Assembly: GCA_021815695.1 (NCBI GenBank)
Contig: JAKAZT010000005.1
Span: 4,183 to 40,304, forward strand
Direction of reading: 5' to 3'
Length of the DNA: 36,122 nt
DNA from: Pseudomonadota bacterium
Lineage (GTDB): Bacteria; Pseudomonadota; Gammaproteobacteria; Xanthomonadales; Rhodanobacteraceae
The translations under genes and the position numbers were made by a program. The notes under the pieces are model-generated. The model saw nothing but the letters and a program-made list of their open reading frames with translations. It had not been told where the DNA came from and did not search any database. This document shows positions 31,394 to 33,756 of the stretch, one piece after another; the first letter of the stretch is position 1, and each line of letters begins with the position of its first letter.

Positions 31394-32035
31394 TCAGCCA
31401 CGCGCGCGCTCGGCCTCGGCCGCAGCCCGCCATTCGATGACCGCCGGCAGCGCGGTGATCGCCTCGACGTAAGCCTGTGCCTCTGCGGTCAGGGCAATGC
31501 CGTAAGCGACGAAGCGCAGCGCCACCGGTGCGTACATCGCGTCCGCCAGACCGAAGCCGCCAAACAGGAACGGTCCGCCCGTGCCGAAGCGCCCGCGCGC
31601 GTCGCGCCACAACTGCTGCACGCGGGTGATGTCGCGCGCCGCCTCGGGACCCGGCGTCGCCGGCGCGCCGCGGCGCTGCAGATTCAGCGGCAACTCGCGG
31701 CGCAGCGCGGCGAAGCCGGCGTGCATCTCGGCGGCGATGGCGCGCGCATGCGCGCGCGGCGCCCGTTCGCGCGGCCAGCCGCGGCCAGCGAGGAAGGTCT
31801 CGTTGATGTACTCGAGGATCGCCAGCGACTCCCAGACCGCGACACCGTCGTGCAGCAGCGCGGGCACCTTGCCGGTGGGCGAGAACTCGCCGATGCGGGT
31901 ACGGAACTCGGGCGTGTCCAGCGGCAGACGCAGCTCCTCGAAATCGACGCCGAACACACGCAGTGCCAGCCAGGGCCGCAGCGACCACGAGGACAGATTC
32001 TTGTCGCCGATCACCAGGGTGGGAAGGGTCATCAT
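31394..32035 (-). CDS. Glutathione S-transferase family protein
   Basis: LVIGDKNLSSWSLRPWLALRVFGVDFEELRLPL; SPTGKVPALLHDGVAVWESLAILEYI. Confidence 0.9.
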   Translation of the reverse strand: MMTLPTLVIGDKNLSSWSLRPWLALRVFGVDFEELRLPLDTPEFRTRIGEFSPTGKVPALLHDGVAVWESLAILEYINETFLAGRGWPRERAPRAHARAIAAEMHAGFAALRRELPLNLQRRGAPATPGPEAARDITRVQQLWRDARGRFGTGGPFLFGGFGLADAMYAPVALRFVAYGIALTAEAQAYVEAITALPAVIEWRAAAEAERARG

Positions 32036-32085
32036 CGGTCTCCGCAGGCGATCGGCGCACAAGGCGCGGGCAGGGTCGGCGCAGG

Positions 32086-32250
32086 CTAGTGCGGTGTCTC
32101 GGAAATACGCATCCATCTTTCCCGCGTCTTTCGGCACGATACGGCGTTGCGCCTCGTCGCCATAGCGGGGCTATGACTCCTCGCCGCGCCTTGTCTCGCA
32201 CCGAAATCCATCGGCAATCGCCGGCGCGTACTTCCGAGACACCACACTAG
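32086..32250. mobile_element. 165-bp palindromic MITE-like / intergenic repeat element
   Basis: 25-bp termini CTAGTGCGGTGTCTCGGAAATACGC / GCGTACTTCCGAGACACCACACTAG (2 mismatches as inverted repeats); CATAGC-GGG-GCTATG at the exact centre. Confidence 0.75.
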
Positions 32251-32271
32251 CAGATCGTCGCGCGCGGCCGC

Positions 32272-33756
32272 TCAGGCCACTGCGACGGTATCGGCGTCAA
32301 CGCGAAAGTGCGCGCCGATGCTGCGTCGACGCGCACGCATCGCGGCCAGCATCGCCGCCGCCAGTGCCAGCACGTCGCGTTCGCGGGATGCCGCCGGAAC
32401 CTCGCCGGCGAGCGCCGCCAGCGCCGCTCCGGCGCGAGCCAGACCGTCGTCGCTGCGCAGCAGCGCGGCGTCGCGCCAAAGCAGCTCGCCAAGACGCAGA
32501 CGCAGCCCGGTCGGCGACGGCTGCCAGCGCCGCTCCGGCGGCAACGCCACGCCCGGCTCGGGCAACGATCGCGACGCCAGCGCCGCGCCCAGCTCACGGC
32601 CATGCGCCAGGCCTTCGAGCAGCGAGTTGCTGGCCAGCCGGTTGGCACCATGGACGCCGCTGCAAGCAGCCTCGCCGACCGCATACAGGCCCGGCAGCGA
32701 CGTCGCACCCGCGGCGTCGGTGCGCACACCGCCCATGCAGTAATGCGCTGCCGGCACCACCGGGATCGGCTGCGCACGCGGGTCGATTCCGCGATCCATG
32801 CAGGCGACGAACACGGTCGGAAAGCGCTGCGGGAAGCCGGCACCGATCGCAGCGGCGGCATCGAGCCAGGCGCCGCCACGCAGCGTCTCGCACCACACCG
32901 CGCGTGCCACTACATCGCGCGGCGCCAGCTCCGCATCGGCATGCAAGGCCGGCATGAAGCGCTTGCCACGCGCGTCGAGCAGTACCGCACCGGCGCCACG
33001 CAGGGCTTCGGTCAGCAGCGGCAACTGACCGTGCGCGCCGTCGCGCGGGGCCAGCGCGGTGGGATGGAATTGCACGAACTCGAGATCGGCGAGCGCCGCG
33101 CCGGCTGCCAGCGCCAGCGCGATGCCGCTGCCGTCGCTGCCGGGCGGATTGGTGGTGTAGCGATACAGGCCGGCATAGCCACCGCTGGCCAGCACGACCG
33201 TGCGGGCGCGCCACAGCTCGCTGCCGCCCGGGCCCTGCGCCCAGGCACCGACCACGCGGCCGGCGCCGTCGCGAGCGAGCGCAAACGCGGTGCGGCGGGA
33301 CGCGAAGGTCAGATGCGGACGCGCTGCGGCGGCAGCCGCCAGCGCCCGCATCACTTCGGCACCGGTCGCGTCGCCCTGCGCATGCACGATGCGGTCACGA
33401 CGGTGCGCGGCCTCGCGACCCAGGGCGAGCGCTGCGCCGACGCGGTCGAAGCGCGCACCCAGCGTCTGCAACCAGGCAATCAGTCCGGGTGCCGCCGCGG
33501 TCAGACGCGCGACGGCCGCCGGATCATTCAAGCCCGCCCCGGCGCTCAGTGTGTCCTCGGCGTGCAGTCGCGGGCTGTCGTCGGCGGCCAGCGCGGCGGC
33601 GATGCCGCCTTGCGCCCAGCGGCTGGCCCCGTCAACCGCCGGCTCCGGACCCGGCGTCAGCACCGCCACCCGCCGTGGCGCAGCGGCCAGCGCGGTCGCC
33701 AGCCCGGCGGCGCCGGAGCCGACCACCAGCACATCGAACAGGGCATCGGTCGTCAT
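32272..33756 (-). CDS. nadB: L-aspartate oxidase
   Basis: VLVVGSGAAGLATALAAA; SRWAQGGIAAAL; HYCMGGVRTDAAGATSLPGLYAVGEAACSGVHGANRLASNSLLEGL. Confidence 0.96.
   Translation of the reverse strand: MTTDALFDVLVVGSGAAGLATALAAAPRRVAVLTPGPEPAVDGASRWAQGGIAAALAADDSPRLHAEDTLSAGAGLNDPAAVARLTAAAPGLIAWLQTLGARFDRVGAALALGREAAHRRDRIVHAQGDATGAEVMRALAAAAAARPHLTFASRRTAFALARDGAGRVVGAWAQGPGGSELWRARTVVLASGGYAGLYRYTTNPPGSDGSGIALALAAGAALADLEFVQFHPTALAPRDGAHGQLPLLTEALRGAGAVLLDARGKRFMPALHADAELAPRDVVARAVWCETLRGGAWLDAAAAIGAGFPQRFPTVFVACMDRGIDPRAQPIPVVPAAHYCMGGVRTDAAGATSLPGLYAVGEAACSGVHGANRLASNSLLEGLAHGRELGAALASRSLPEPGVALPPERRWQPSPTGLRLRLGELLWRDAALLRSDDGLARAGAALAALAGEVPAASRERDVLALAAAMLAAMRARRRSIGAHFRVDADTVAVA

Follow-up and report, generated by a model that had tools for sequence, protein, structure and literature searches.

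In the window (the whole stretch of DNA analysed, 36,122 nucleotides), the gap between a GST gene and a nadB-like gene holds a 159-bp element that is almost certainly a non-autonomous MITE of the IS630/Tc1-mariner type, a reading that follows from its TA duplication together with its IS630-type TIRs. MITEs of this type have been described before, so that the element taken by itself is unremarkable and represents a new family within an established kind. The case for a new variation on that kind would lie in its ~46-bp core, which recurs across Gammaproteobacteria between changing ends in elements of near-constant length, unlike the expected decay products of a single IS.

Limits of the element and its copies

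The preliminary description named the neighbours as nadB and a GST gene, and profile matches bear this out, identifying a nadB-like FAD oxidoreductase and a GST (Table 1), with nadA also confirmed nearby. In line with the same description, the inverted-repeat palindrome is real: the arms at 32085-32110 and 32226-32251 are 92% complementary, CATAGC-GGG-GCTATG occupies 32161-32175 with its centre at 32168, the exact midpoint, and both strands fold far better than shuffled sequences (-84.9 kcal/mol, z -5.9 for the + strand; -98.8 kcal/mol, z -10.3 for the - strand, which is co-directional with nadB). The length first given, 165 bp (32086-32250), does not hold because it counted the CTAG on both sides, whereas empty sites show that the outer C and G belong to the target and that the mobile unit is 159 bp. 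Short, non-coding and bounded by TIRs of 22 bp, this unit has the make-up of a MITE.

Table 1. Coordinates of the element, its parts and the adjoining genes.
Feature	Positions	Strand	Extent or context	Basis
GST gene	31394..32035	-	start codon ~53 bp beyond the element	GST_N_2, E 1.4e-14
Left copy of duplicated target TA	32087..32088		within CTAG 32086-32089	empty site GGCTAGCAG in G006 and G007
MITE proper	32089..32247		159 bp, no coding role	empty-site comparison and same-length copies in relatives
Left TIR GTGCGGTGTCTCGGAAATACGC	32089..32110	+		resembles IS630 ends GTGTNNTGTCYC; arm complementarity
Left half of conserved core	32144..32166	+	26 elements, several families of the class	class consensus GCGTTGCTCGTCGTCGCCATAGC; mean pairwise identity 81%
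Right half of conserved core	32171..32193	+		class consensus CTATGACTCCTCCTCGCGCCTTG; mean pairwise identity 80% and pairing pattern
Right TIR GTGTGGTGTCTCGGAAGTACGC (read on - strand)	32226..32247	-		arm complementarity
Right copy of duplicated TA	32248..32249		within CTAG 32247-32250	empty-site comparison
nadB-like gene	32272..33756	-	stop 24 bp before the element in the direction of transcription	FAD_binding_2, E 2.6e-86

A 17-mer from the TIR has no second match in the window at up to three mismatches (chance expectation 0.13), so the element is indeed single there, as first described; yet the genome holds about 16 related, dispersed copies (G000, the window's own MAG), most of them 79-95% identical. 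Congeners and more distant relatives contribute 1-17 matches each, some of the same length, and most genomes have none. The orthologous GST-nadB gap is intact and empty in two sister species of the genus (G006 and G007), which read GGCGCAGGCTAGCAGATCG against GGCTA-[159 bp]-TAGCAG in the window. The insert thus comprises 32089-32247 plus one TA, and the target duplication that had been anticipated exists but is of TA, not of CTAG. Clean empty sites were also found for copies L004, L005, L082 and L167. Other sites, e.g., that of L003 and its counterpart in G006, hold the element in two or more species, which indicates insertions of different ages. Several copies are decayed, a point that weighs against the MITE reading as far as current mobility is concerned.

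At the site of L003 in G007 (L221) the element is absent, and GGGCACCGCGCTAAC beside the site resembles a remnant right end, which could reflect the past deletion of a copy. Additionally, when copies are oriented by the core, the right-hand TA is lost or changed far more often than the left (19 versus 2, binomial p 2e-4, for copies that are not independent), e.g., in L167, L082, L183, L129 and L112. Comparison with empty sites shows that L082 and L005 formerly had the TA and that L167 lacks one base. For ISY100 in vitro, some insertions carry TA on one side only (PMC2170065).

A core shared across Gammaproteobacteria

The 45 copies that were aligned vary little in length. Their core is much more strongly conserved than the stretches immediately inward of the TIRs, where sequence varies from lineage to lineage and complementarity is retained. 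When the full-length consensus was compared with 369 genomes of the class, seven genomes besides G000 gave matches, and there to the core only; the core as query against 399 genomes of the phylum added five further matches in the class, while a sixth match, in G986, has the look of coding sequence hit by chance. Such searches, which rely on similarity to the core or the full consensus, are biased to conserved cores; nevertheless, the full-length query over the class gave, outside G000, nothing but the core. The class-level loci are complete elements from other orders and families, mostly of the form TA/GTG...CAC/TA and ~158-162 bp long where both ends were found. TIRs match themselves at 90% within an element and at 31% between elements (the latter, taken in fixed windows, being a low estimate), and the best match in shuffled control flanks averaged 12/20; for two of the 26 elements (f102a and f155a) the automatic search gave no convincing TIR. 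In one genome (G895), two copies carry a recognisable core between unrelated ends, GAACCTATCCCAGTAGG, each bordered by TAA. If confirmed, this would mean that the same core is used with the ends of another transposase type; no IS with such ends was found in the viral contigs searched.

As separate observations, viral contigs (L309-L324, e.g., L310:3581-3649) contain a recurrent ~68-bp element that is bounded by GAACCTATCCCAGTAGG and GAGCCTATCCCATTAG within TTTA/TTAA-like flanks and is possibly another miniature element, and some copies in G056 and G047, two order-level relatives, have GC-rich, REP-like hairpin modules inserted in place of the core stretches adjoining the central stem (L143, L144, L148, L154 and L157).

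Outward from the CATAG/CTATG stem of the core, mismatches alternate with Watson-Crick pairs. Read on the - strand, the mismatches are of the G.A or A.G type, in 20-23 of 23 cases at the four innermost positions, and the pairs between them swap G-C for C-G, pairing being kept in 23/23 at L12-R9 and in 21/23 at L9-R12. Fixed mismatches and swapped pairs together suggest that the purine-rich strand, here the strand of nadB transcription, forms tandem G.A pairs of the type 5'-GA-3'/3'-AG-5'. In 24 of the 26 elements the predicted fold of this strand is also the more stable one, an outcome that is partly expected from G.U pairs, among elements that are not independent, and that we take as supporting evidence only.

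Common descent with horizontal spread, with no selection on structure and with fixed mismatches inherited from a shared ancestor, is a serious explanation for the core, if one that stops short of probable. It accommodates the homology and near-constant length of the elements, as well as the concentration of swapped pairs in few lineages, which implies few independent changes. It fits less well with a core that keeps 80-81% identity over ~46 bp in 26 elements while the outer arms fall to 36% (compared without gaps), and with G-C/C-G swaps that preserve pairing at positions whose flanking mismatches stay fixed. In the favoured reading, descent has preserved the core throughout the class as the ends varied. 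Selection on the core hairpin is the best-supported reason for its retention, and because independent swaps are few, we treat it as plausible and unproven. Tentatively, then, the ~46-bp core may be a functional hairpin module whose purine-rich strand probably contains tandem G.A pairs. Selection would have maintained this module as it travelled through Gammaproteobacteria in ~159-bp MITEs, the ends of which would have been replaced to suit different transposases, one set (G895) not resembling IS630. If true, the interior of a MITE has a role, whether as RNA or in helping the element to spread (through synapsis, a cruciform or a host factor), and this role becomes testable with small synthetic elements.

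Rfam gave sub-threshold chance matches only for the window and none at the gathering score for 11 loci, and the plasmid and phage collections contained no match to the element or the core. Core sequence strings led, in the parts of the literature sources that were available, mainly to human and animal primer papers. No description of a class-wide core with changing ends was found among the open-access papers covered.

IS630-type ends, CTAG targets and rival origins

The transposase with CTA/GTG ends that the preliminary description proposed to look for exists in the IS630 family. One congener (G009) carries an intact gene of this family (NF033545, E 1.6e-77; DDE_3) within an element bounded by CTA/GTGTTCTGTCCC and CTA/GTGTCATGTCCC, and TA-flanked ends GTGTNNTGTCYC are found on intact IS630-family elements in this genus and family, e.g., TAGTGTGGTGTCTCACAACTAA in G030 and TAGTGTGGTGTTCC in a multi-copy IS of G251; by family member, the ends read GTGTGGTGTCTCACAAC (G030), GTGTGATGTCTCATAAATAA (G027), GTGTGATGTCCC (G237) and GTGTGGTGTTCC (G251). 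In G056 and G047, the TIR GTGTGGTGTCCCAAAAATAA is common to local MITEs and IS630-like elements over a ~23-bp match, and contigs break inside elements in which the local MITE TIR is followed by IS630-like coding ends (MRKKGRPVKGL..., ...ANPKPFIWRKSADAIIEAVARAAGKL), fragments that are too short for a profile match and were called IS630 from a reading of their residues. No IS630 transposase was found in G000 (a MAG 87.9% complete, in 188 contigs), and the exact TIR of the element occurs in no IS630 of the family among those examined. The core is likewise missing from the IS630 elements examined; these MITEs are therefore not simple internal-deletion derivatives, although an interior derived from the parent IS is a common, not a required, trait of IS630-derived MITEs.

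CTAG is strongly depleted in the window, with 6 occurrences against ~105 expected from base composition, and despite this rarity almost every copy whose flanks are intact lies in it. Tenzen and Ohtsubo (in 1991) reportedly described TA within CTAG as the preferred target of IS630. Since the first base of the element is G and its last is C, insertion into C/TA/G restores CTAG at both edges, which leaves a TAG stop unbroken (for instance at L185, L131 and L116) and explains MITE-MITE and MITE-IS junctions with one common CTAG in G047 and tandem IS630 in G237. A single CTAG is common to MITE-IS630, MITE-MITE and IS630-IS630 junctions (L154:3324-3657, L111 and L228:1156-1157). Enrichment at gene stops was rejected: a coding frame terminates at 10 of 54 boundary TAGs, versus 47 of 345 control CTAGs, which leaves no real excess beyond CTAG availability. 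In mechanistic terms, an IS630-family transposase acting in trans would cut at the GTG...CAC ends and the element would be pasted into the TA of a rare CTAG, its terminal G and C restoring CTAG on both sides, so that the stop would stay intact and new target sites would be left.

CTAG at both ends could also be read as the mark of another IS family with CTAG-containing targets, e.g., an IS5 subgroup (4-bp YTAR duplication) or IS481, and the class-level element with non-IS630 ends and TAA repeats lends this some support, but the empty sites record a 2-bp TA duplication only, as is known for IS630-family elements (PMC2170065), and the matching TIR type is found on that family, making a different driver very improbable. 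That the element is instead a regulatory or terminator structure local to the nadB-gst unit, as its very stable hairpin on the nadB co-directional strand and its closeness to both genes might suggest, is just as improbable and is refuted as its origin by the ~16 dispersed copies and the empty gaps in two congeners, where the preliminary description had considered a single copy at one site in all relatives, as well as by a consensus scan that detected neither a promoter-like nor an intrinsic-terminator-like site there and by the lack of any clear bias in orientation with respect to adjacent genes (a crude test with a crude gene caller). The mobile MITE first proposed is thus supported by its copies, empty sites, target duplication and IS630-type ends. 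In this MITE, the nadB-to-gst RNA is predicted to fold into a very stable hairpin, which might serve as an RNase III substrate or a 3'-end stabiliser.

Comparison with known repeats

REP and BIME sequences are likewise intergenic palindromic repeats, but REPs, in the portions of the sources consulted, measure 20-40 bp and are linked to tyrosine transposases (PMC2817692, PMC3733652), whereas the present element is bounded by TIRs with IS630-like ends and by a duplicated TA. TA duplication is also seen in two insertion sequences of the Tc1/mariner type, ISY100 and IS630 of Shigella (PMC2170065). IS630 also shares the CTAG preference; both are full insertion sequences with a transposase, whereas the present element codes for nothing. 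Closer in form are the Correia or NEMIS elements of Neisseria, of ~107-155 bp, with 24-bp TIRs, TA at their termini and a long hairpin RNA cleavable by RNase III (PMC2229807, PMC10969869); a consensus scan shows none of their internal sigma-70-type promoters in the present element. RUP (repeat unit of pneumococcus), attributed to IS630-Spn1, is also short, non-coding and multi-copy, with IS630-like TIRs and TA targets (PMC2229807). However, RUP is 107 bp long with 9-bp TIRs and resides in a Gram-positive host, whereas the present element spans 159 bp, is nearly palindromic throughout, prefers CTAG and carries a class-wide core.
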